From positions 124,001-188,000 of the forward strand of contig NZ_JAAKEG010000005.1 in NCBI RefSeq assembly GCF_011039075.1: a DNA stretch of 64,000 nt, written 5' to 3'. The position numbers were made by a program, and so were the translations under genes. This document shows positions 12,708-29,179 of the stretch, piece by piece. This DNA comes from Adlercreutzia sp. ZJ304. Its GTDB lineage: Bacteria > Actinomycetota > Coriobacteriia > Coriobacteriales > Eggerthellaceae. Every line of letters starts with the position of its first letter. Within the stretch, counting starts at the first letter, position 1. The notes beneath the pieces were generated by a model, which ran no database searches, had not been told where the DNA came from, and saw only the letters and a list, made by a program, of their open reading frames with translations.

Positions 12708-12816
12708 GTCGATCGATGACGCGATCGGCATTTGGTGCGATTCTTTGGCACGCTGCTCTTTAGTACGATTGGCTACAGGCTTGGACTACAGGCCTTGGGA
12801 AGTTTTTTGCAGAAAA

Positions 12817-12961
12817 ATGGTCAAAACTTCCGACTTTCCACGGTCGGATTGCCATGAAGGCAGCTTGAATTGTGGAGAACACTGGGCAAACAGCATTTGG
12901 TAGTGCATCTCTAGGGGCTATTTTGTGCTTTTCACAGTGGAAAGCTGGAAGTTTTGACCAT
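12817..12961. repeat. MITE-like hairpin element, copy 2
   Basis: The same terminal arms as copy 1 (TGGTCAAAACTTCC / GGAAGTTTTGACCA), with the conserved 20-mer GTGGAGAACACTGGGCAAAC on the plus strand. AAAAA precedes and TTTTT follows the arms, so an RNA from either strand would resemble a terminator. Confidence 0.75.
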
Positions 12962-12994
12962 TTTTGTAACTTTTTTGAACTAGGAAGCTTCAAC

Positions 12995-13024
12995 CTACTT
13001 TGCATTTGTATTTCTGCGGCGGTA
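12995..13024 (-). pseudogene. 3' tail fragment of a LAKTG-type surface gene
   Basis: The minus strand reads YRRRNTNAK followed by TAG, identical to the last ten codons of the surface protein gene at 14581-17820. No coding frame extends upstream beyond this tail. The same tail fragment is found on the other rpn module at 28898-28927. Confidence 0.6.
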
Positions 13025-13029
13025 AGGGG

Positions 13030-13327
13030 GCAGTTACTTTGAGAAGTTGCCAAAATCGGGCGACAAGTAACTTCTCAGTAACTTCTCGACTAACAAAAGC
13101 TGCAAAGTTTGTATAGTAGATAACTCCCGACACATTTCTGCAAGATTTGCACTCATTAAAAGTTGCAACTATGGGGATTTGAGATATCAATAGGTGTTGC
13201 AAACAGTTGGTTTTGACATGAAATCTGTATGTCACTTGATATCGCATTTTTGATACACAGATATAAGGTTTGCAATCTAGTCTTGATTAGAAGATTTATA
13301 AGTCTTCTAGAGAAAGAAAAGACAAAC
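13030..13327 (+). other. conserved structured leader of rpn copy A
   Basis: About 300 bases upstream of the nuclease gene are shared with the leader of the second copy (28606-28897, minus strand). Two interleaved complementary pairs are visible: GATATCAA (13183) with TTGATATC (13236), and TTGCAAAC (13197) with GTTTGCAA (13268). Their order 1-2-1'-2' would allow a pseudoknot. A short hairpin TAGAAGA...TCTTCTA lies just before the ribosome-binding site. It could be an RNA regulator or simply part of the mobile module. Confidence 0.5.
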
Positions 13328-14215
13328 ATGGATGAGCAAGCTACTGTTTCTATTACTAATCAATTTATGTTCAATCGCGTAATGATTCAAAAAGATATAT
13401 GTAAAGACTTTCTAGAGTGTGTATTAGGTAAGCAAATTGATGACCTAATCTATAAAAACGCAGAACAAGCAATAGAACCTAGACTAGATTTTAAGAGTGT
13501 TCGACTTGATTTGTTTGCTAAAACAAAAAATGAAGTTTTTGATATAGAACTACAGATTCAACAAAGAGCAGATATCGCTAGGAGATATAGATATTATCAA
13601 GCATCTATTGATACTACATCGCTTGATAAAGGAGCAGACTACGATAAGCTACCCACAAGCTATATTATCTTTGTTTGCAATCATGACCCTTTCAAAGCAG
13701 GACTTCCTGTATATACGATAGAGAGAGTATGTATTGAGAATAATAGTATTCCTATAAAAGATGATTCTCACTGGATTGCGCTTAACTGTAAGGATTATAA
13801 GAAGATAAAAGATAAGCATCTACTTTCTTTTATGGAGTATGTCTTCACTGGTAAAATAGATAAACAAGACAAACTAGTTAAATCTATTGCTAGTGCAGTA
13901 GATAGAGCCAATGAAGATAGAGAGTGGGTGAATAAGGTGTTTTCTGTAAGTACAATAGGAGAAGATTGGGAGCGAGAAGTACGTATAGCCCGCAGAGCTG
14001 CTCTAAAAGAGGGAGAAGAACGAGGGCTAGAGCGTGGGCTGGAACGCGGAATCTTGCAAGGACGAGTTGAAGGCTTACAACAAGGGCGTGCGGAAGCCGC
14101 ACGCTACGACTCTCTTATCAAACACCTATTTGCCGCTGGACGCGAAGCTGACGTTCTTAAAGCCTCTAAAGACCCAGCCTATCGCGAGCAGCTTTTTGCT
14201 GAGTTCGGCATTTAA
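13328..14215 (+). CDS. Rpn-family PD-(D/E)XK nuclease, copy A
   Basis: This 295-residue protein belongs to the Rpn/YhgA-like group ('PD-(D/E)XK nuclease family transposase'). Family members are DNA endonucleases tied to recombination and phage defence. The catalytic core is visible as Asp in SVRLDLFAKT and the E-x-Q motif in FDIELQIQQ (about residues 55-75). The C-terminal part has charged ERGLERGLERG repeats and then a short tail ending EQLFAEFGI. The ATG at 13328 is chosen because it matches the start of copy B and follows a purine-rich AGAGAAAGAAAAG run. It is clearly more AT-rich than neighbouring housekeeping genes, which suggests transfer. Copy B at 27763-28605 is almost identical for the first 220 residues. 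Confidence 0.85.
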   Translation: MDEQATVSITNQFMFNRVMIQKDICKDFLECVLGKQIDDLIYKNAEQAIEPRLDFKSVRLDLFAKTKNEVFDIELQIQQRADIARRYRYYQASIDTTSLDKGADYDKLPTSYIIFVCNHDPFKAGLPVYTIERVCIENNSIPIKDDSHWIALNCKDYKKIKDKHLLSFMEYVFTGKIDKQDKLVKSIASAVDRANEDREWVNKVFSVSTIGEDWEREVRIARRAALKEGEERGLERGLERGILQGRVEGLQQGRAEAARYDSLIKHLFAAGREADVLKASKDPAYREQLFAEFGI

Positions 14216-14308
14216 TATACAACTAAAAGCAATTCGTAAATTCAGGCTTTAGTGCCTATTCTTTTGAAAACTCCATCCCGGATATAGCGTGTCAAAGAGT
14301 GTGCCATT

Positions 14309-14612
14309 AGGTGCAATCCTTTGGCACGCTGCTCTTTAGTACGATTGTCTACAGACTTGGACTACAGACCTTGGGAAGTTTTTTGCAGAAAAATGGTCAA
14401 AACTTCCAGCTTTCCATGGTCATAGCGCCACATAGCCAGCTTGAATTGTGGAGAACACTGGGCAAACAGAAAATTCGACACCTTTTTGATGCCTTAGTAG
14501 GCACAATCTCGCATTCAGAACCATGGAAAGTCGGAAGTTTTGACCACTTTTCTAACTTTTTTGAACTAGGACGCTTCAACCTACTTTGCATTTGTATTTC
14601 TGCGGCGGTAAA
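14309..14612. repeat. right member of the direct repeat flanking rpn module A
   Basis: This matches 12730-13024 in the same orientation, with differences spread along it. It includes hairpin copy 3 and the real 3' end of the surface gene. The rest of the 14216-14580 gap holds a short unique stretch with a GTGCCA...TGGCAC hairpin and no gene. Confidence 0.65.
14393..14547. repeat. MITE-like hairpin element, copy 3
   Basis: The arms ATGGTCAAAACTTCCAGC... and ...GTCGGAAGTTTTGACCA flank the conserved 20-mer GTGGAGAACACTGGGCAAAC. It lies 34 bases downstream of the stop of the surface protein gene, where it could serve as that gene's terminator. Confidence 0.75.
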
Positions 14613-17600
14613 GCAAAACTGCAGTAGCGCTTGCAAGTGCAGCTATACCAACTAGACCTGTAGCAATAGGCGCATTTAGATCTCCTGTTTTGGCAAGAGA
14701 CTGCAGGCGGTGAACCCCTCTTGGTGCTTTAGAGCTTACAGGTCCAAAGGTTATAACTACGTCGTGGTTTTTATCAATGTTAGATATGGTGTATGAACTA
14801 CCTGTTGTAACAGGTATATTTACTCCGTTGTCTTCAATAGATACAACTCTATATCCTGTCTCTATTGTGTAGTTTACAGAGTAGCTAGCACCCGCTTTTA
14901 CTTGTACAGATAGCGTTTCATCTGTATTGGACGTACCTGATATCATGCCACCTTTTCCTTTAGCTTTAGCGGTTATAGTGTATGTATCGTTTGTAGGGTG
15001 TGCAGGGTTTGGGCTAGCACCCTTAGGAGCAAACTTTACATCCACCTCTATTAGGTCTGTTGCACGAGACTTTAAGTAATCGGATGTAATTACATATACT
15101 TTGTCGTCTGCTCCTGCCCGAGATGCAGCATATGCTTTTTCTATACCAAGAAGGCTAGATAAACTACGCTTGCTATTTATAGCTTGCGACCGCATCTTAT
15201 AAGAAGCATCTCTTTGCTTGGTGTTTCTGTTTTGCACTTCTTCAGCAGCCGCTATATCTGCATCAGTTGCCGCCTTTAACGTACTAATGTCTATTTCTTG
15301 CCCGTCAATTTTCAAAGATACAAGTTTACTTCCGCTTTCCGGTTGTATGACTATAGGCAAATCGTTCTTTTGCTTCCATTGGAACTTGCCACTTGGAACA
15401 ACTGTACCTTTACCCTCTAAGCTTGTTTCTGTATCAATGTCTGTCTCAACTTTGATGTCCATATCTTTTGCGGGAGTAAACTCACCGGATATGGTATGTG
15501 TATCTTGCGGACTATGAAAGACAATCGAGCCTGTAATTGGATCTAGCGTAAAGCTATCACCGGGCATGCCTGTGTCTTTGTCTATAAATGCGTACTCCCC
15601 TGTAGTTGCATCGTATGTAATGCCTGCTTGCGCCATTGCCGCCGGGTCATCTTTTATCTCGTATTCATCATCTAGAATAACTGTGCCATCAACTACAACT
15701 TTATCTAGCACTTCATGTGCGTCCCCCGAATCGAAGTAGCTGTTTTCATCTTTGTTGCTGGGCTTTACAGTAGCTGTCTCATCAGGACCAATTGGCTTTG
15801 CGTCATCTGGAGGTGTTGGCTTGCCTGGCTTTTTGAACGCGAAGCTAACGATTGTGTCTTTTTGTACATTTGTAATGGTAAGGGTGTTTTCCTTAGTTAC
15901 CCAACTAGTTACATCTGTTTGAGGCGTACCGGCACCATAAGAAAGAATGGCGCTATCTAGCACATAGTCGTCCTTAGGCTCTATAACAAGCACTACCTCG
16001 TTTCCTTTAGCAACATGTACTGAAGATACCCACTGTGTGTTTGTTTGCCCAAAACCAACACGGGCATGCTCTGTATTGTAGCTAGCAGATACTGTGAAGT
16101 ATTTTGTAGGCTCGCCTGAACCAAATGCAAAGCTAACCGCTATTGTCATGTCTTTGTTAAAAGAGGGAATAGTGTAGGTGTCACCTTCTACCTTAAACTC
16201 TTCATTGTTTATGGTGACACAATCAACCTTACAGCCCTGTGCCGGCGCAAAGTACAGTGTTAGGGGCTTGTTTTCCTCTAAAGTGTATGAACCGTATTGT
16301 TTGCCAACCTCAAATACAAGCGTTTTTCCTGCCTCTACCCTAGTTGCAGGAATCTTTTCTCCTACATAAGTATCTCCATGAGGAACATCTCCTAAAGCTG
16401 CACCTGACGTAAGTGTTAGCGTGGAAGCCTCTCCTGTATCTGCTTGTTTAAACTCAACACTAAATACAACTCTAGATGCCCTGCCATCCTCGTTGAAGTT
16501 GCTTGGGAAAGTATATGAATTGCCACTATATGTGCCATATGGGGCAGGAGCATCTGTATCACTTGCATGCGGAATTACATACTCTGTGCCGCTCACGATT
16601 AGCGACACTTTGTCCACTGCATATCCAGAATATGCCTCAAATAAAAACTCTGGACAAGAACCATATGCAAAAGTTGCACCCTCTGTATCAATTTGTCCGC
16701 CTGCACTTGCACGCGTCTCTACACTAAATGCACGCTTTTCATCTTCTGGGGGAAGCACTTTGGAAAGTGCGAAAGAGCCTATCTCGCCTGTAGTGTTTGT
16801 GCCTGTAAGTTTGAATGTAATTCCCTCTTCTGTAATTGATACATCTGTAATGCCTAGGCTTGCTGCTGTATCTTTGTCAGCTAGAGTTATAACATTCCAC
16901 TTGCCCTTAGCATCTAGCGCCATCAATCGATAATCAGCAACAGAAGCTGCATCAAAGCCCGCAAGAGATGAAGTGTTTAGCTTAACTAGTATGTCTTGTT
17001 TGTAGGCATCGTGTCCCGCATCGATTCCTGTAAGTGCTACCTGCCATACGCCCTCTATGCTAAGTTTTCCGTTTGCTGCACTTTCAAATGCAGCATATAC
17101 AGGAGATGTTTTATCCATAGTGCTGCTAGCTAGTACAGCTCCCCTATAGATTGCACCTGTAACACCTGTGTCTGTGTCCACCCCATCAATTTCAGCTGTT
17201 GGACCACCCGCTACCATCCAAGTGTAGTTTTTGCCTTCAATATCGTCATAGAAAGGACCTACTCTATAGCCTTCCTCGCGCACAACAATAAAGGGCTTAT
17301 CTTCGTTTTGTTTTGCAATGTTTCCAGAGCTGTCTTTTACCTCTAGCCAATACCAATAGGTTTTGCCTTCCTCTAAGTTGTCGTTTTGAGGAAAGTGTTT
17401 GCATGTGGCAGTGTTTGTGTCGCTATTAAATGTGATGGTGTCACTAGATGAAGATACAACTTTGCTTGTCGCATAAGCAGCGCTATAGTCTGCACTTTCT
17501 AGTGCTTGCGCCACCCTCCAAGTTGCACTTAAACCACTTGCATCTTCACTACTTATACCCACCACATACATCTCAATTGCACTGCCTGATGTATATTCTT

Positions 17601-17820
17601 TCTCAAACATAGAAAACTGTGGGTCTGCTATAGAAAAGCCATCTTTTTGCCCTATTAGATAGATACTGCTTTCGAATTGTCCGGAAGTGTCAAAGTCTTT
17701 GTCTTCATAGTGTATTTTTGTATCCGCAAAGGCTGATGCAAAAGACAGCGACACAATAAGAGCTACTGCCAAAAGACATGCAATTAGCTTATCTATATAT
17801 GTGCGAATAGTGCTTCCCAT
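14581..17820 (-). CDS. large sortase-anchored surface protein (LAKTG type)
   Basis: This 1079-residue secreted protein has a signal peptide (about residues 1-32, ending SFASAFA). A beta-rich body follows, with at least three related modules beginning like ASAGGQIDTEGATFAYGS, each followed by a hydrophobic-aromatic pattern ('bacterial repeat' type). The C-terminus has the sorting signal SLAKTGD, a hydrophobic helix and the positive tail YRRRNTNAK. LAKTG is a known LPXTG variant in Coriobacteriia. It is the last gene of a minus-strand surface cluster and starts 29 bases after the upstream gene. Its tail codons recur as isolated fragments at both rpn modules. The binding target is unknown. Confidence 0.85.
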   Translation of the reverse strand: MGSTIRTYIDKLIACLLAVALIVSLSFASAFADTKIHYEDKDFDTSGQFESSIYLIGQKDGFSIADPQFSMFEKEYTSGSAIEMYVVGISSEDASGLSATWRVAQALESADYSAAYATSKVVSSSSDTITFNSDTNTATCKHFPQNDNLEEGKTYWYWLEVKDSSGNIAKQNEDKPFIVVREEGYRVGPFYDDIEGKNYTWMVAGGPTAEIDGVDTDTGVTGAIYRGAVLASSTMDKTSPVYAAFESAANGKLSIEGVWQVALTGIDAGHDAYKQDILVKLNTSSLAGFDAASVADYRLMALDAKGKWNVITLADKDTAASLGITDVSITEEGITFKLTGTNTTGEIGSFALSKVLPPEDEKRAFSVETRASAGGQIDTEGATFAYGSCPEFLFEAYSGYAVDKVSLIVSGTEYVIPHASDTDAPAPYGTYSGNSYTFPSNFNEDGRASRVVFSVEFKQADTGEASTLTLTSGAALGDVPHGDTYVGEKIPATRVEAGKTLVFEVGKQYGSYTLEENKPLTLYFAPAQGCKVDCVTINNEEFKVEGDTYTIPSFNKDMTIAVSFAFGSGEPTKYFTVSASYNTEHARVGFGQTNTQWVSSVHVAKGNEVVLVIEPKDDYVLDSAILSYGAGTPQTDVTSWVTKENTLTITNVQKDTIVSFAFKKPGKPTPPDDAKPIGPDETATVKPSNKDENSYFDSGDAHEVLDKVVVDGTVILDDEYEIKDDPAAMAQAGITYDATTGEYAFIDKDTGMPGDSFTLDPITGSIVFHSPQDTHTISGEFTPAKDMDIKVETDIDTETSLEGKGTVVPSGKFQWKQKNDLPIVIQPESGSKLVSLKIDGQEIDISTLKAATDADIAAAEEVQNRNTKQRDASYKMRSQAINSKRSLSSLLGIEKAYAASRAGADDKVYVITSDYLKSRATDLIEVDVKFAPKGASPNPAHPTNDTYTITAKAKGKGGMISGTSNTDETLSVQVKAGASYSVNYTIETGYRVVSIEDNGVNIPVTTGSSYTISNIDKNHDVVITFGPVSSKAPRGVHRLQSLAKTGDLNAPIATGLVGIAALASATAVLLYRRRNTNAK

Positions 17821-17849: not shown

Positions 17850-18488
17850 TTAATTTAGAACCTTTATGTTTACTTTTGCTCCAGCTTGCCCTATTTCTTC
17901 TTCTGTTTCTGGATCAAGTGCGTGGAATAGTGCTGTGCAATCGTAGGTACCTGCAGGAAGGTCGACATCTAAGGTATCGTTTTGAATGTGATGATTTGGC
18001 TCTATAATGCCCGATTTGTATATGACTTCCCCTGTATCATCGCGCGTAATATCTACCTGCATTAGATATCTGTTTCCCGGAACATTTTCTATTCGAAGCG
18101 GTCCCTCAGATGCGCCGTCTTTAAACTCAGTTTCACTAGCGATAGATATGTTGAACATGCCCTCTTCTACTTTGCGGTCAAGCTCGGCTCGTATCTCTTC
18201 TTCCGACTTGCCTTCAATCTGCCCTATGAGTGCATTTGTATCACGCGTACTAGGCTGTTGGTCGCTCCACCAGAAATATCCAAACACACATGCTGCAACA
18301 ATAGCTAGTACTGCTATAACAATAGCGATATAGAAAGCAGCTCCGCGTTTGCGCTTGTTTTTAGACGCGGAATTGTTTGCAGGATTTGCCTGCGCACTTG
18401 TTTGCGGGTTTGTATAAGAGCCATTGTCTATACCGCTATTGATATGCATTTGTGCATTGTTTTGTGTATTTGGGTTATCCTGTGTCAT
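17850..18488 (-). CDS. membrane-anchored protein of an unnamed surface family, paralog 1
   Basis: This 212-residue protein has an Asn/Gln/Pro-rich cytoplasmic start, a basic stretch KNKRKRG, one membrane helix (about residues 50-75) and an extracellular domain of about 130 residues. That domain contains the motifs EEGMFNISIAS, IENVPGN, MQVDIT-DDTGE and GQAGAKVNIKVLN. The start at 18488 is preferred because AAAAAGGAC lies just upstream. It is paralogous to the protein at 19508-20092. I recognise the pattern as a recurrent uncharacterised family in gut and oral Gram-positives but know of no function. Its place between secreted proteins suggests a membrane anchor or assembly factor for them. Confidence 0.75.
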   Translation of the reverse strand: MTQDNPNTQNNAQMHINSGIDNGSYTNPQTSAQANPANNSASKNKRKRGAAFYIAIVIAVLAIVAACVFGYFWWSDQQPSTRDTNALIGQIEGKSEEEIRAELDRKVEEGMFNISIASETEFKDGASEGPLRIENVPGNRYLMQVDITRDDTGEVIYKSGIIEPNHHIQNDTLDVDLPAGTYDCTALFHALDPETEEEIGQAGAKVNIKVLN

Positions 18489-18514
18489 GTCTGTCCTTTT
18501 TAGGGTAGATGGGT

Positions 18515-18573
18515 GGAGCCGCCGCTCCATCAAGGTTTGGCGGCTCCCCGAGGTATAAGACGTTACGTCTTAT
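18515..18573. terminator. two hairpins between surface genes
   Basis: GGAGCCGCC pairs with GGCGGCTCC (18515-18547). A second perfect palindrome, ATAAGACGT-T-ACGTCTTAT (18555-18573), lies beside it. They lie in the minus-strand transcript between the small secreted protein and the anchored paralog. They could act as an attenuator that lowers expression of the genes behind them. Confidence 0.5.
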
Positions 18574-18600: not shown

Positions 18601-19239
18601 TTAAGCATTATCGATGATCGATATGGTGTAAGTTAGGGTTACTGCATGTGTTGAGTTGACAGCGTCAAAACCTTTTTTATTAGTGCCGTCATAGAGTTCC
18701 TGGCTAGGTACTGCTACGCCAGACATATTAAGATTCAAAGTTTCCCCAGCAGCAATATCGAAAAGACCCTCAGTAAGAGTAACTGTAGGATCTTTCAAAG
18801 TGATAGATGTGCTCATAGCATCAGTCTTCATAGCCAGATATATCTGAGAATTAGTCTCGGGGTATTTTGAAGGAGTCGCAGGAACAGTCAGGGTGTTATC
18901 AGCTAGCTCAAACTTAGCGGCTGCTACTGGCGCAACAGATTCAATCTTTACCGCCGCTGTTCCGCTATTTGTGATGGCATATTTAGAAGCGCTAGGAGCA
19001 ATCAAATTGCCACCTTTTTGTGCTACAGAAAGCGGAAGGTCTACAGGAACCGTAACACTAATCTGACCTTCAGTTGTTGGTGCAGCGATACCATTTACAA
19101 GAACCTTTGTATTAGCATTATTGATAGTGTTCGTACCTTCATAGTCTGGCGGTGTTACTGCAGCGAACGCAGGCATAGCACAACCCAGCGCCAGCGTGGT
19201 AGACAGTGCAACTGCTCCAAATAACTTACTTGTCTTCAT
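18601..19239 (-). CDS. small secreted protein of the surface cluster
   Basis: This 212-residue protein has a signal peptide cut near residue 27 (MPAFAA). The mature part is Thr/Ala/Val-rich, beta-predicted and lacks a sorting signal. The segment ISVTVPVDLPLSVAQKGG followed by 'SKYAITNSGTAAVKIESV' has a counterpart in the protein at 23616-25406 (ISLTVPIVVTFGG, then SFRNAGKSAVMITKIT). The two therefore probably share a domain of a type seen in camelysin-like or WxL-like surface proteins. It has its own long leader (19240-19507) and following hairpins, so it may be the most highly expressed member, possibly a subunit of a surface fibre. Confidence 0.75.
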   Translation of the reverse strand: MKTSKLFGAVALSTTLALGCAMPAFAAVTPPDYEGTNTINNANTKVLVNGIAAPTTEGQISVTVPVDLPLSVAQKGGNLIAPSASKYAITNSGTAAVKIESVAPVAAAKFELADNTLTVPATPSKYPETNSQIYLAMKTDAMSTSITLKDPTVTLTEGLFDIAAGETLNLNMSGVAVPSQELYDGTNKKGFDAVNSTHAVTLTYTISIIDNA

Positions 19240-19443: not shown

Positions 19444-19472
19444 TACCTTGCCTTTCTTGCTGTTCTTAAAAA

Positions 19473-19488
19473 TGTTTCACGTGAAACA
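19473..19488. promoter_or_regulatory. parS-like ParB-binding site
   Basis: TGTTTCACGTGAAACA is a perfect 16-bp palindrome identical to the canonical bacterial parS sequence bound by ParB/Spo0J. The palindrome extends with flanking A and T bases. It is the only copy I find in the window, and it sits in an intergenic gap of the surface cluster. No parA or parB is in view. Chromosomal parS sites cluster near oriC in most bacteria. Confidence 0.85.
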
Positions 19489-19507
19489 TTTTTTGCATGA
19501 GTGGTTC

Positions 19508-20092
19508 CTAGTTCAGTACGTTCAGTGTTACTTTTGCTGCAGCTTGTCCCACTTCTTCTAAAGTGTCTTGATCTATCGCGTGGAAAGTTGCTGTAGCTTG
19601 GTAAGTTCCTGCATCTAAATCTTTAGAAAGCGCTATATCTTTGATGTAGGAATCGGGCTTTAGTCCACCTGATTCATAGACTTTCTCGCCAGTGTCATCT
19701 AGCGTTATGTCTACCTGCATCACATATGGGTTGCCGGGCACGTTTTCAATGTACGCAGTACCGGGTGCCGCGCCGTCTTCAAACTCAATCACAGAAGCAA
19801 TGGAAATGTTGAACATGCCCTCTTCTACTTTGCGGTTAAGCTCTTCTTGTATTTCTTCTTCTGTTTTGTATGGGGCTTGACCAATTATGGAATTAGCATC
19901 GTAGAAGTTATCTTTGCTGCAAAACGCTAAACAAAGAGCAACTATTATTCCTATTGCAACCACAAGCGCAACCAAAACAATAACAATTGTTTTGCCAGTG
20001 TTAGATTTCTTTTGCTGCTGTACTGGCATTTGCATGTTTGGCTTTTTAGCTTGCTGCTTAGGCGGCTTCATATGAACTTTGTTGTCTTGCAT
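19508..20092 (-). CDS. membrane-anchored protein of an unnamed surface family, paralog 2
   Basis: This 194-residue protein has a Lys/Gln/Pro-rich cytoplasmic start, one membrane helix (about residues 35-57) and an extracellular domain closely similar to the paralog at 17850-18488. The shared motifs are NRKVEEGMFNISIAS, FEDGA, IENVPGN, MQVDIT-DDTGE and VTLNVLN. The start follows a GGCAAACG/AAAGG-like leader. The two paralogs each follow a larger secreted protein in the cluster. That suggests they are paired with different partners or mark a duplicated operon unit. Function is unknown. Confidence 0.75.
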   Translation of the reverse strand: MQDNKVHMKPPKQQAKKPNMQMPVQQQKKSNTGKTIVIVLVALVVAIGIIVALCLAFCSKDNFYDANSIIGQAPYKTEEEIQEELNRKVEEGMFNISIASVIEFEDGAAPGTAYIENVPGNPYVMQVDITLDDTGEKVYESGGLKPDSYIKDIALSKDLDAGTYQATATFHAIDQDTLEEVGQAAAKVTLNVLN

Positions 20093-20131: not shown

Positions 20132-23100
20132 TTATTCAGAAGGTGCCACGCACCAGCGAATTGTTGCTAATGGTTTATCGCCTGTGTTGTAAGTGCCATC
20201 TGTTGGTTCGCCAAACTCAGCCTTCCATGCATCAGCGCCCTGCCAGCTAGCTCCGTTAGACATAAGCGACAGCGACCAATACTTCGTAGCGTCTTTTCCA
20301 AGAGATCCAACTAATAATTTGTAGTTGGGTGTGGAAGGTTCGTTATACAGAAGCGGCAATGCACTTTTTACTCCAGAGTCGTTAAAGCTGAAATATGCTT
20401 TGTCGCGATTAGCTTCATCATTGAACAACCACGAACCCGTTTCCCCAGCTAGAGCATAGGCGCTAAAGTCAATGGGCACTACAGTTTCTGATTTAACCTC
20501 TAGCGATACAGGAATCGAATTGCCTGTTTCTATATTGAAGGCAAGAGACTTATCTGTTGGAATTGTGCACTTCAGGCGAAGTGTCCAGACCGCATAAAGG
20601 GAAACTTCTGCGCCTTCTTGGTCGGCTAGGGCACCTACTGTGGCTCCTGCACCATATTCTGCTGTGGTAGCGCCTTTAGTCTTAGACCAGCCAGCAAGAA
20701 TATAGCCTTCCTTTTTGCAGTTTTCGTTCTCTTCGTTATAAAGCGTTACTTGACCTGCGCCACTTGTTACCGTCTGAGTAGTAAGCTGCGTGTCCCCATC
20801 AAAGTATTTGATTGTGTATGTGTAGCCATTTGGCTCGTAGTAAAGGTTAAATACGTTTTGTGTCGCATCTACTCCAATAGTTAGTGTTTCAGGAGTACCG
20901 CTAACAAAGTTGTATCCATCTATTTCTGCCTTAACACTGTCAAGGGTAATAGTCGTGCCATACTCTGCCGATTCGGTTTTAGATTCTTTGACAGATGTAA
21001 GCGGATTGCTGTCTATTAAGTAGTAATTAACCGTGTAGTTATAGCTTGCTTTTGCACAAGTTGCCGTAATGGTAATGTCTTCTGTTGTGCCTGTAGGAAT
21101 TGTGGCTGTATAAGTATTGTTTTCGCCTTTGGCAATTCTCACGTTATTGTTCGTGCAAGACCAAGTTACTTTAGTAATATCGTATCCCGTGCTAGCCTCA
21201 ACCGTTAAAGTAACTGATTGCGAATCGTTTTCACTGTAGGTATAGCTAGTAGGGTTAGCTGTAAGTGTTTGTACGCCTTCCCCGGCTTTTATATTAACGG
21301 TGTATGTGTTGGCGCGCCATTCAGCTGTAAATGTATTAGTTGAAGAGTCGCACGTCCATTTGGAAAGCGTATATCCAGTGCGTGTAGGTTCGGGAAGCGT
21401 AACGTTTGCTCTAACAACCATCGTGTAGTTTTCGCCAGATTTTGTCCAACCCGCGGGGGCGGATGCAAACGATCCGCCAGCAAGAGCCATGGTGATTGTT
21501 GTTCCAGTATCAACTGCAACAGTTTGTGTGCCAACATCGCCTGACTTATAAGTTACGTTGAATTGCTGCACCCACTGAGCAGTAAATGTAGTGTTTGATA
21601 GTGCCCAACCACCAAACCTGTAACCTATACGAGTAGGTGTTGGCATCTCAATTGAGCCGTCCGTTACATGGCGTGTGTAATTAGAGCCAGATTGAGTCCA
21701 GCCAGTAGTTATGGCTGTGCCACCTTCTAGCTTCATGGTTATCTCTGTGTTGTAATCAAATGTGGCAGATGTGGTATTGCCCGACGTGTCAACATACGAA
21801 ACGCTATATTTATTGATAGTCCAGTGAGCATAGTAGGTTGTATTTGTAGGTGGCAAAGGTTCACTGTTGTTGTTTACCTTATAACCACTAGTGTCTTTAG
21901 TAGTCCACCAACCATCAAAAGTGTAGCCAGTCTTTGTTGGGTTCGGCGTTGGGCAGAACACACTAGATGTAGATGAATAAGTTTGCGTTGTATTGCCTAC
22001 AGTGGTTCCACCTTGAGAATCCCATGTTAAGGTTATGGTGTTGGCTGTCCAGTGAGCATACAGGGTTTGGTTTGAGGTAATAGTTACTTTCGTTGAACTA
22101 GTTACTTGCGTGCCACCAGAAGCGTCCGTGTACCAACCTGCAAATGTGTAGCCCGCGCGAGTTGGAGTTGGAAGATCCTCATAAGTTGAATCGTATGTAA
22201 CAGTTTTCGTTGTAGGGCTAACACTACCGCCATTAGCATTGAATGTAACGGTATATGTGTTGGCATCATATTGGGCATACCAAGTTGTATTTGCACTTAC
22301 TGCTGTAAGAGGTGGAAGTATACCTGATGCTGCCTTTTGAGTGCCAGCGGTAGCTGCATCATACCAACCCTTAAATGAATATCCTGTAGCAGCAGTTGCC
22401 TTCGGGAAAGTTGAGGCGGTGTATTTCGTACCTGTGCAAGCCGCATCAGAATACCAACCTTTTCCACTCCATAGATATACCTTAGTCGGACTAACAGATG
22501 AACCACCATTGTCTGCATTGGCATTTAGTGTGACTGTATAGACTACCTTGTCATATTGGGCATACCAAGTTGTATTTGCACTTACTGCTGTAAGAGGTGG
22601 AAGTATACCTGATGCTGCCTTTTGAGTGCCAGCGGTAGCTGCATCATACCAACCCTTAAATGAATATCCTGTAGCAGCAGTTGCCTTCGGGAAAGTTGAG
22701 GCGGTGTATTTCGTACCTGTGCAAGCCGCATCAGAATACCAACCTTTTCCACTCCATAGATATACCTTAGTCGGACTAACAGATGAACCACCATTGTCTG
22801 CATTGGCATTTAGTGTGACTGTATAGACTACCTTTGCCCAAATTGCATAATAAGTAGCATTTGTTGTGCCAACGTTTATAGATGTTGAACCTGAAGTGGC
22901 GTTTTTATTCGTGCTCCAGCCTACAAACTTATAACCTGTCTGAGCCGTTGGGACAGTTGAGCCGTTATAACCTGTTACTGCTGCATCCCATGCATGACTA
23001 GATGTTTTTGCTGCTTTGTCTGTTGTGGTGCTACCCCAGTAGCCTCCGTTAGGATCCCATGTTACTGTCACTTTTGAGCCATCGGTTACACGGATGCCGA

Positions 23101-23446
23101 GAGTTGTTGTAGCCGTAGTAGACGTTGTTGCAGAAGGATTGCTAGTGGTGTTATTCATATCCTTCTGACCATCGGTTATGCGAATACCAAGTGTTGTTGA
23201 GGCAGTAGTAGACGTTGTAGCAGACGGATTACTAGCAGTATTGTTCATGTCCTTTTGTCCGTCTGTTACGCGAATGCCAAGTATTGTTGTAGCGGTACTG
23301 CCCGTAACAGGATTGGCGGCATAGGCGCTCTGCGGCACAACAGCCGATATGGCAGATACAAGAAGCGTGCATGCAAGAGTTATGGCAAGAATCAAAGCAA
23401 GCCAAATGCGTGTATGCGTGCTTTTTCTATTTAGCTTATCTTGCAT
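20132..23446 (-). CDS. large secreted protein with InlB-type (Flg_new) repeats
   Basis: This 1104-residue protein has a signal peptide (about residues 1-43). Three near-identical 30-residue repeats containing LGIRVTDGQKDMNN follow, then a chain of Listeria-Bacteroides (InlB B-repeat, Flg_new) modules recognisable by 'F.GWY..A..GT...' and 'T.YAQW/TWYAQYD'. Two of the modules are identical at the DNA level (see the 284-bp repeat). The C-terminal 130 residues are different and end APSE without a sorting motif or membrane helix. Attachment must therefore be non-covalent or through a partner such as the membrane-anchored protein encoded next. Such repeats are common in adhesins. Confidence 0.82.
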   Translation of the reverse strand: MQDKLNRKSTHTRIWLALILAITLACTLLVSAISAVVPQSAYAANPVTGSTATTILGIRVTDGQKDMNNTASNPSATTSTTASTTLGIRITDGQKDMNNTTSNPSATTSTTATTTLGIRVTDGSKVTVTWDPNGGYWGSTTTDKAAKTSSHAWDAAVTGYNGSTVPTAQTGYKFVGWSTNKNATSGSTSINVGTTNATYYAIWAKVVYTVTLNANADNGGSSVSPTKVYLWSGKGWYSDAACTGTKYTASTFPKATAATGYSFKGWYDAATAGTQKAASGILPPLTAVSANTTWYAQYDKVVYTVTLNANADNGGSSVSPTKVYLWSGKGWYSDAACTGTKYTASTFPKATAATGYSFKGWYDAATAGTQKAASGILPPLTAVSANTTWYAQYDANTYTVTFNANGGSVSPTTKTVTYDSTYEDLPTPTRAGYTFAGWYTDASGGTQVTSSTKVTITSNQTLYAHWTANTITLTWDSQGGTTVGNTTQTYSSTSSVFCPTPNPTKTGYTFDGWWTTKDTSGYKVNNNSEPLPPTNTTYYAHWTINKYSVSYVDTSGNTTSATFDYNTEITMKLEGGTAITTGWTQSGSNYTRHVTDGSIEMPTPTRIGYRFGGWALSNTTFTAQWVQQFNVTYKSGDVGTQTVAVDTGTTITMALAGGSFASAPAGWTKSGENYTMVVRANVTLPEPTRTGYTLSKWTCDSSTNTFTAEWRANTYTVNIKAGEGVQTLTANPTSYTYSENDSQSVTLTVEASTGYDITKVTWSCTNNNVRIAKGENNTYTATIPTGTTEDITITATCAKASYNYTVNYYLIDSNPLTSVKESKTESAEYGTTITLDSVKAEIDGYNFVSGTPETLTIGVDATQNVFNLYYEPNGYTYTIKYFDGDTQLTTQTVTSGAGQVTLYNEENENCKKEGYILAGWSKTKGATTAEYGAGATVGALADQEGAEVSLYAVWTLRLKCTIPTDKSLAFNIETGNSIPVSLEVKSETVVPIDFSAYALAGETGSWLFNDEANRDKAYFSFNDSGVKSALPLLYNEPSTPNYKLLVGSLGKDATKYWSLSLMSNGASWQGADAWKAEFGEPTDGTYNTGDKPLATIRWCVAPSE
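22266..22834. repeat. perfect tandem repeat of about 284 bp inside the InlB-repeat gene
   Basis: 22266-22549 and 22551-22834 read as identical, with a 285-base period that keeps the frame (95 codons). Perfect identity within a fast-evolving repeat gene indicates recent duplication, and the unit could expand or contract. Confidence 0.85.
23080..23300. repeat. 90-bp coding repeats at the N-terminus of the InlB-repeat gene
   Basis: The three LGIR(V/I)TDG units are spaced 30 codons apart. They differ by a few substitutions, unlike the perfect 284-bp repeat. They form a Ser/Thr/Asn-rich stretch just after the signal peptide. Confidence 0.7.
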
Positions 23447-27590: not shown

Positions 27591-27762
27591 TCACTATAAC
27601 ACGCCGTTTCATTTGCGGAAAGGCTTCCACATAAATTCAACAAACGCAATTTTTTGAGGGGTGAGATACGTCGCAACTCAACGGTTGATTGGTTTGCGGT
27701 TGATTGCAAAATCCAAGGAAATGCCCACGTCCCTGAATTGACGAATTGCTTTTAATTGTGCA

Positions 27763-28605
27763 TTAAATGCCAAACTCAGCAAAAAGCTGTTCGCGATAGG
27801 TTGGGTCTTCGGATGCCTTGAATAGGTCGTTTTCACGCTTTTTAGAGAGAAGTAACTTTGTGAGTTCTGCATAACGCATTTCAGCTTCAGCTCGCCCACG
27901 TTCTAGTCCTCGTTCTTCTCCCTCTTTTAGAGCAGCTTTGCGGGCTATACGTACTTCTCGCTCCCAATCTTCTCCTATTGTACTTACAGAAAACACCTTA
28001 TTCACCCACTCTCTATCTTTATTGGCTTTATCTACTGCACTAGCAATAGATTTAACTAGTTTGTCTTGTTTATCTATTTTACCAGTGAAGACATACTCCA
28101 TAAAAGAAAGTAGATGCTTATCTTTTGTCTTTGCATAGTCTTTGCAGTTAAGAGCAATCCAGTGAGAATCATCTTTTATAGGAATACTATTATTCTCAAT
28201 ACATACTCTCTCTATCGTATATACAGGAAGTCCTGCTTTGAAAGGGTCATGATTGCAAACAAAGATAATATAGCTTGTGGGTAGATCTTCGTATTCATCA
28301 CCCTTGTTAAGAGAAGCTGTATCAATAGATGCTTGATAGTATCTATATCTCCTAGCGATATCTGCTCTTTGTTGAATTTGTAGCTCTATATCAAAAACTT
28401 CATGTTTTGTTTTAGCAAATAGATCAAGTCGAACACTCTTAAAATCTAGTCTAGGTTCTATTGCTTGTTCAGCGTTTTTATAGATTAGGTCATCAATTTG
28501 TTTACCTAATACACACTCTAGAAAGTCCTTACATATATCTTTTTGAATCATTACGCGATTGAACATAAATTGATTAGTAATAGAAACAGTAGCTTGCTCA
28601 TCCAT
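27763..28605 (-). CDS. Rpn-family PD-(D/E)XK nuclease, copy B
   Basis: This 280-residue protein is nearly identical to copy A through about residue 225, including Asp in SVRLDLFAKT and E-x-Q in FDIELQIQQ. It then diverges. The ERGLERG repeat is shorter and is followed by RAEAEMRYAELTKLLLSKK, before the shared end YREQLFAEFGI. The Met in AEAEMRYAEL could be an internal start for a short C-terminal product. Known Rpn genes of enterobacteria make such intragenic inhibitors, but here it is only a possibility. Orientation is opposite to copy A, so the two form a long inverted repeat around the surface cluster. Confidence 0.85.
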   Translation of the reverse strand: MDEQATVSITNQFMFNRVMIQKDICKDFLECVLGKQIDDLIYKNAEQAIEPRLDFKSVRLDLFAKTKHEVFDIELQIQQRADIARRYRYYQASIDTASLNKGDEYEDLPTSYIIFVCNHDPFKAGLPVYTIERVCIENNSIPIKDDSHWIALNCKDYAKTKDKHLLSFMEYVFTGKIDKQDKLVKSIASAVDKANKDREWVNKVFSVSTIGEDWEREVRIARKAALKEGEERGLERGRAEAEMRYAELTKLLLSKKRENDLFKASEDPTYREQLFAEFGI

Positions 28606-28897
28606 GTTTGTCTATTCTTTCTCTAGAAGACTTATAAATCTTCTAATCAAGACTAGATAGCAAACCTTATATCTGTGTATCAAAAATGCGATATCAAGTG
28701 ACATACAAACCTTGGCACAAAACCAACTGTTTGCAACACCTATTGACATCACAAATCCCCATAGTTGCAACTTTTAATGAGTGTAAATCTTGCAGAAATG
28801 TGTCGGGAGTTATCTACTATACAAACTTTGCAGTGTTGCGAGTTGGGAAGTTGCGTGTCGTCCGGTTTTGGTAACTTCTCGACTTAACTGCAACCCT
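28606..28897 (-). other. conserved structured leader of rpn copy B
   Basis: This is the minus-strand equivalent of 13030-13327. The first pair of the possible pseudoknot is kept with a wobble change (GATGTCAA, 28743-28750, with TTGATATC, 28690-28697). The second pair starts from TTGCAAAC (28729-28736) and keeps six of eight pairs. The region next to the tail fragment diverges most. Confidence 0.45.
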
Positions 28898-28927
28898 TAC
28901 CGCCGCAGAAATACAAATGCAAAGTAG
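28898..28927 (+). pseudogene. 3' tail fragment of a LAKTG-type surface gene (rpn B side)
   Basis: The plus strand reads YRRRNTNAK and TAG, the same last ten codons as the surface gene at 14581-17820 and the fragment at 12995-13024. No upstream coding part is present. Confidence 0.6.
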
Positions 28928-28960
28928 GTTGAAGCTTCCTAGTTCAAAAAAGTTACAAAA

Positions 28961-29105
28961 ATGGTCAAAACTTCCAGCTTTCCACTGTGAAAAGCACAAA
29001 ATAGCCCCTAGAGATGCACTACCAAATGCTGTTTGCCCAGTGTTCTCCACAATTCAAGCCAGCCATACGACAATCCGACCATGGAAAGCTGGAAGTTTTG
29101 ACCAT
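28961..29105. repeat. MITE-like hairpin element, copy 4
   Basis: Both arms are of the CTTCCAGCTTTCC type and match perfectly, unlike the other copies, which mix two arm types. The conserved 20-mer is on the minus strand. It occupies the same place relative to rpn B as copy 2 does to rpn A. Confidence 0.75.
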
Positions 29106-29179
29106 TTTTGTAAGTTTATTTCTCTCGCCACGTATTTGAAACTCTGCAACTTAACGAGATTGATTGCAGTCGCAATATG

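Follow-up and report, generated by a model that had tools for sequence, protein, structure and literature searches.

A canonical chromosomal-type parS site in a surface-protein operon of an Adlercreutzia genome, and the spread of exact parS copies in part of the Eggerthellaceae

The parS site is taught as an origin-proximal centromere, present in one to about twenty copies. What, then, is a perfect copy doing inside a surface-protein operon, in the gap between two of its genes? The window, by which we mean the whole 64,000-nucleotide stretch of DNA analysed, corresponds to positions 124001-188000 of contig C28 in a 33-contig assembly of 1,998,085 bases, from a genome near Adlercreutzia murintestinalis (Eggerthellaceae). 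A motif scan of these 64 kb placed the 16-mer TGTTTCACGTGAAACA, identical to the parS consensus, at 19473-19488, and no second match was present in the window with up to three mismatches allowed. By simple arithmetic, about 1.5e-5 exact sites are expected by chance per 64 kb, and shuffling the window gave on average 0.36 matches within three mismatches. Five A on the 5' side of the core and six T on its 3' side extend it to a 26-bp perfect palindrome. The sequence-only reading of this DNA had described an exact ParB-binding consensus with further palindromic flanks that chance was very unlikely to produce, and all three points were borne out. Pure chance as the source of parS was also rejected on a wider basis, as the backward control pattern had no exact match in any of the family and phylum genomes listed.

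The features of the locus, in window coordinates, are as follows.

13100-14246, plus strand: left inverted repeat with a PDDEXK_2 gene (PF12784); 940-nt arms, 95% complementary, and 106-nt arms
14581-17820, minus strand: gene D, large operon protein of 1079 aa; 50% identity over 708 aa to its C5 counterpart
17850-18533, minus strand: gene C, 227 aa, a gene A paralogue (repeat D3)
18601-19239, minus strand: gene B, 212 aa, ORF with a secreted-type N-terminus; relatives at C5, C12 and C29
19326-19443, minus strand: hairpin element, about 118 nt, in the A-B intergenic region; fold z-score -5.47, genomic copies
19468-19493, no strand: AAAAA-parS-TTTTT, the 26-bp perfect palindrome (sequence and fold)
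19473-19488, no strand: parS core TGTTTCACGTGAAACA, exact match; 15 identical 16-mers at the genome's own oriC/parAB
19508-20092, minus strand: gene A, ORF of 194 aa; paralogues at C5, C12, C2 and C29 (two copies)
20132-23446, minus strand: gene X, 1104 aa, upstream of gene A; Listeria-Bacteroides repeats (Flg_new, PF09479, E 4.8e-46)
27732-28833, minus strand: right inverted repeat with a PDDEXK_2 gene; the PDDEXK_2 proteins are 85% identical

The parS site thus lies between the two minus-strand genes A and B, 14 nt from the stop codon of gene A, and gene B is followed downstream by gene C and then by gene D. Read from its sequence, the gene A protein has a single N-terminal transmembrane stretch and a conserved outer part; neither gene A nor gene B gave a Pfam match. 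The hairpin element lies between parS and gene B, that is, upstream of B; none of 200 shuffles was equally stable, and at least seven distinct copies occur in this genome. An Rfam search of the window returned zero matches, the hairpin element included. Its core is fixed, while its outer arms are variable but mostly self-complementary. In an arm-swap test of seven copies, the outer arms scored a mean of 25.9 with their own partners versus 17.4 with those of other copies, the own partner being strictly best in three of the seven, tied in two and not best in two.

The inverted PDDEXK_2 (nuclease/transposase) repeats bracket the whole surface-protein cluster, with 13.9 kb between the arms. The segment between them could be invertible or an island, and, given these repeats, the cluster is possibly a mobile or rearranged island. 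Its G+C content (0.42-0.44) is slightly below that of most other parts of the window, and no tRNA was found in the window. Each end of contig C14 also carries a PDDEXK_2 piece matching the window's repeats. A dispersed repeat, up to about 300 bp long, occurs at 12729-13025, 14305-14611, 28897-29109, 49416 and 6409 and on other contigs, forming a direct repeat on both sides of the left PDDEXK_2 gene.

Across the genome, we found 26 exact parS copies, six places with one mismatch (those on C6 and C32 have matching sequence and may be one place) and two with two mismatches, against no exact match and two at up to two mismatches for the backward control. The copies are therefore many yet not random, and the crowd of random matches that the sequence-only reading had held against a real site did not appear. 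Fifteen of the 26 fall within 41 kb on C33 (9820-50717), alongside parA, parB and gyrA, one of them inside parB itself; the GC skew of C33 turns from minus to plus near 38-42 kb, which, with parAB and gyrA, gives our estimate of the origin. The other 11 are dispersed over C2, C5, C12, C14 (three), C28 (three) and C29 (two). The distances to the ends of contigs C33 and C28 put at least about 110 kb between the window parS and the skew flip, a lower bound in this 33-contig draft. The earlier suggestion that the origin-proximal domain includes the surface-protein cluster fits poorly with this distance, with the location on C28 and not C33, and with dispersed sites on many contigs. As a side observation, one origin-cluster parS lies within a palindrome of about 42 bp (L017:15350-15391, about 35350-35391 on C33).

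The only ParB_N protein in this genome is the chromosomal one on C33, which carries ParB_N and HTH_ParB domains; no second was found. With the parS cluster beside its cognate chromosomal parB, the genome has the arrangement of a chromosomal ParABS system, and the chromosomal parS sites of B. subtilis, S. coelicolor and C. glutamicum share the same 16-bp core and likewise have cognate parAB by a dense origin cluster. The window core is exact and identical to those of the chromosomal cluster, which supports its identity as a canonical chromosomal parS. We consider it probable that the window parS is a genuine secondary loading site for the genome's only ParB, away from the origin, and that it belongs to a set of exact parS sites, spread over the chromosome, that is typical of part of the Eggerthellaceae.

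The site is not a peculiarity of this one operon copy. Gene A relatives with 63-70% identity to the window's gene A are found at C5, C12, C2 and C29 (twice), and downstream of each, ahead of gene B or the place of B, lies an exact parS, so that the gene A-parS junction is present at six loci, the window included. At C29, 8,320 bp separate the two copies, whose flanks are identical. The order and orientation of the hairpin element and parS vary between loci; at C12 the hairpin lies between A and parS. At the gene A end on C32 (5.4 kb), the hairpin element is present and the exact parS after it is absent, which makes six of seven A loci with parS, the seven being those found through the hairpin search. 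Because the junction recurs at six loci, parS travels with the operon; it has a fixed place at the operon junction and was copied along with it. A rival reading is that the site is bound by ParB and yet a passenger, carried by the operon with no selected role at this place. Operon copies bear parS wherever they are located, and the C32 end shows the hairpin element without an exact parS after it, both as expected of a passenger. On the other hand, the 16-mer is exact in all six junction copies, a count to be read with the identical flanks of the C29 pair and the relatedness of all copies in mind. We regard the passenger reading as somewhat unlikely, though it is the strongest rival to a secondary loading site.

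Counts in other genomes bear on how strictly the core is kept. Exact parS occurs in 125 of 138 Eggerthellaceae genomes, with at least 25 copies in 26 of them, at least 100 in 10 and a maximum of 148; genomes below 25 copies carry between 0 and 23. A draw of 396 genomes from the phylum included 13 Eggerthellaceae; the 383 outside the family reached a maximum of 21, in an 8.6-Mb genome, followed by 13. Per-species counts cover 13 of the 80 named ParB loci. Exact and one-mismatch copies numbered 109/4 in Eggerthella sinensis, 107/12 in Adlercreutzia faecimuris, 78/6 in Gordonibacter pamelaeae, 48/7 in Enteroscipio rubneri, 25/8 in Gordonibacter sp. Marseille-P2775, 26/6 in our genome and, less extremely, 41/16 in A. 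murintestinalis. Senegalimassilia anaerobia has 14 exact copies and Paraeggerthella hongkongensis 11, and A. hattorii, A. caecimuris, Berryella, Gordonibacter sp. Marseille-P4307 and Slackia exigua have two or three. The rarity of one-mismatch relative to exact copies argues that the core is far better preserved than neutral copying would leave it, and it is conserved despite unrelated flanks, also within reading frames. A quick, unfinished ParB tree gave 11 changes of expansion label, at least five of them forced by well-supported branches; since parS density near parB had defined the label, we draw no expansion history from this tree.

The fixed letters of the core also bear on a second rival, in which the palindrome is mainly a transcript hairpin between A and B (terminator, attenuator or mRNA end) and is a parS only incidentally, through the copying of a ready-made palindrome. 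The palindrome is indeed placed for this, 14 nt past the gene A stop, with a hairpin energy of -9.6 kcal/mol for the minus (gene) strand and -11.7 kcal/mol for the opposite one. The operon copies have A/T-paired flanks, three one-mismatch loci (C2 twice, and C6/C32 taken as one) alter only the centre and leave the stem intact, and 76 of 216 parB-locus cores of relatives, in the origin region, have at least five extra palindrome pairs versus 1.3% of swapped controls. However, a terminator has no need of fixed loop or stem letters, and yet one-mismatch copies are rare. The intrinsic-terminator scan of the window did not return the 26-bp palindrome, and although the hairpin folds, its T run is part of the stem, while the terminator pattern calls for a G+C-rich stem followed by a T run. 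Several parS copies, moreover, are located in reading frames. A mainly transcript-level role is thus, in our judgement, clearly unlikely.

The cores within genes occupy linkers. On C14, a single long ORF (L022:5605-8487) joins MurT and GatD domains and holds three exact parS in the linker between them; on C28, another (L023:8840-11659) joins an FAD-dependent protein to Sua5, with two exact parS in its linker. Together with the one in ParB, these six in-gene cores translate as VSRET. A rough codon model of E. lenta gave 10 VSRET and 6 FHVK in-gene cores, 42 of the 58 sites being non-coding or uncertain, and a reading-frame bias was therefore set aside as only a mild VSRET lean.

The last rival, already raised by the sequence-only reading, is a centromere of an integrated plasmid or conjugative element that came with the cluster; the bracketing PDDEXK_2 repeats and the slightly low G+C content would suit it, but it was rejected as highly improbable, because the sole ParB_N match of the genome is on C33, no parA or parB of its own lies nearby, the core is that of the chromosomal cluster, the same junction recurs on other contigs and the window holds no tRNA.

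For ParB of other bacteria, loading on parS in the CTP-bound state and subsequent sliding have been shown, and from this biochemistry we infer that loading on the exact window core is to be expected. As a secondary loading site, the 16-bp core would thus receive ParB-CTP dimers that slide into adjacent DNA, and a small secondary ParB patch would form over the surface-protein operon; the patch may recruit SMC and damp transcription nearby. With its A5/T5 flanks, the site also folds as a weak predicted hairpin where the gene A message ends. Part of PMC7022226 describes repression beside an intergenic parS in P. aeruginosa, and by analogy a local effect of the patch on expression is possible. According to a section of PMC7333895, P. 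aeruginosa and C. crescentus tolerate additional parS sites only in the roughly 600 kb around the native one, and a working parS far out would therefore be unusual.

How far out the copies reach can be followed in G406 (inferred E. lenta DSM 2243), a single contig of 3,632,260 bases with dnaA, dnaN, gyrB and gyrA at the record start. It has 130 exact parS; the matches listed give positions for 91 and are complete to 2.93 Mb. Of these, 76 fall on the arm between 0 and 1.8 Mb (36, 14, 9, 8, 0, 0, 5, 3, 1 and 0 per 200 kb); the copies thin away from the origin yet reach the terminus. By hand count, at least 51 of the 130 are more than 300 kb from the start and at least 18 more than 1 Mb. Skew samples are for the most part positive up to 1.83 Mb, with slightly negative exceptions at 0.98 Mb and at two points near the origin, and turn negative from 2.08 Mb on; this change places the parS at 1.836-1.844 and 2.094 Mb near the terminus. 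In Marseille-P2775, parB is at 2.6 of 3.95 Mb, and further parS are at 0.43, 0.52 and 0.98 Mb. The G. pamelaeae record is full of N, and its map order was left unused. G406 also has core pairs whose starts are 34-36 bp apart (e.g., 640497/640532, 1353736/1353770, 1456611/1456645 and 2229213/2229249), which look as if two sites have one inner flank in common.

By comparing flanks, which had played no part in the choice of sites, we found two classes of the same core, distinguished by GTNY at positions 4-7 outside it. This flank was seen in one of 216 exact cores of parB loci (15 expanded-clade records; E. sinensis 0/12, G. pamelaeae 0/14), whereas among dispersed cores it was present on one or both arms in 40/42 of E. 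lenta, 26/26 of E. sinensis and 40/49 of G. pamelaeae, samples drawn from 130, 109 and 78 copies, respectively. The difference (106/117 versus 1/216) has a Fisher p of about 6e-73, with sites that are not fully independent. Exactly one arm carries the flank in 89 of the 117, where 58 are expected under independent arms (p about 1e-8), which makes the dispersed site directional. Its form is TGTTTCACGTGAAACA-TYY-GTTCG, with a consensus that fades about 8 letters out; the extension was noted at L239-L257 and L266-L321, from the E. lenta-sized genome, G. pamelaeae and E. sinensis. Since it marks the dispersed sites of these three species and is absent at the parB region, the dispersed cores may answer to something besides ParB.

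Within 50 kb of dnaA in E. lenta, 4 of 12 cores have the GTNY flank. Among dispersed cores, it is found in 5/24 of A. murintestinalis and 4/10 of our genome (identical second C29 copy dropped), the latter four all in reading frames on C14 and C28. The window parS lacks the TYY-GTNY flank; its arms read TTTTTAAG and TTTTTTGC, A/T flanks like those of the genome's own origin cluster. The stronger arm in E. lenta is directed away from the origin in 28 of 46 sites (right 20/35, left 8/11), close to even, and we make no claim of a replication-oriented motif. A long mobile element carrying the dispersed cores is likewise unsupported, as the oriented flank consensus is lost about 8 letters from the core; the exception to such short shared flanks is the operon copies of our genome, which are paralogous.

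In the Noc/NBS system of B. subtilis, dispersed short palindromes along the chromosome are read by a ParB-family protein, and these NBS sites avoid the terminus. The parS copies of the Eggerthellaceae are also short palindromes dispersed along the chromosome. Unlike in Noc/NBS, however, the window core is parS and not NBS, our genome has no second ParB_N protein, and copies lie near the terminus of the E. lenta-sized chromosome. NBS, which Noc reads, differs from parS by two bases, as stated in a portion of PMC7333895. Reported parS numbers reach 20-23, near the origin, in the same portion, and range from 1 to 20 in an excerpt of PMC10197239, whereas Eggerthellaceae genomes have up to 148 exact copies, and those of an E. 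lenta-sized chromosome extend to the terminus. P. aeruginosa ParB has hundreds of bound places, of which the dispersed ones are heptanucleotide half-sites and the intergenic parS3 and parS4 repress their neighbours (PMC7022226, in part); the dispersed Eggerthellaceae sites are in contrast complete 16-bp sites, many with a one-sided flank. We found no account of parS in Coriobacteria or Eggerthellaceae in the open-access literature searched, the accessible part of PMC4255298 included, and within that literature the family-wide spread appears to be undescribed.

We tentatively propose, as an idea somewhat more apt to fail than to hold, that in part of the Eggerthellaceae parS has changed from a mark of the origin to a network along the whole chromosome. 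In at least Eggerthella and Gordonibacter, the dispersed members would form a separate, directional site of about 24 bp (parS core plus TYY-GTTCG) read by ParB and a second factor. The window site would be a member of the origin type, brought into a surface-protein operon whose expression a ParB patch could affect. If true, such a network could load ParB and SMC along the chromosome arms or perform nucleoid occlusion without Noc. Perfect copies that number up to 148 and reach the terminus, and two sequence classes of one core in a genome, contradict the taught picture of parS, and they do so in common gut bacteria. The cause of parS clustering at the origin is left open in part of PMC7333895; the Eggerthellaceae make this question testable in a culturable species, E. 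lenta. For the organism of the window, the site may mean a possible link between chromosome segregation and surface-protein expression.
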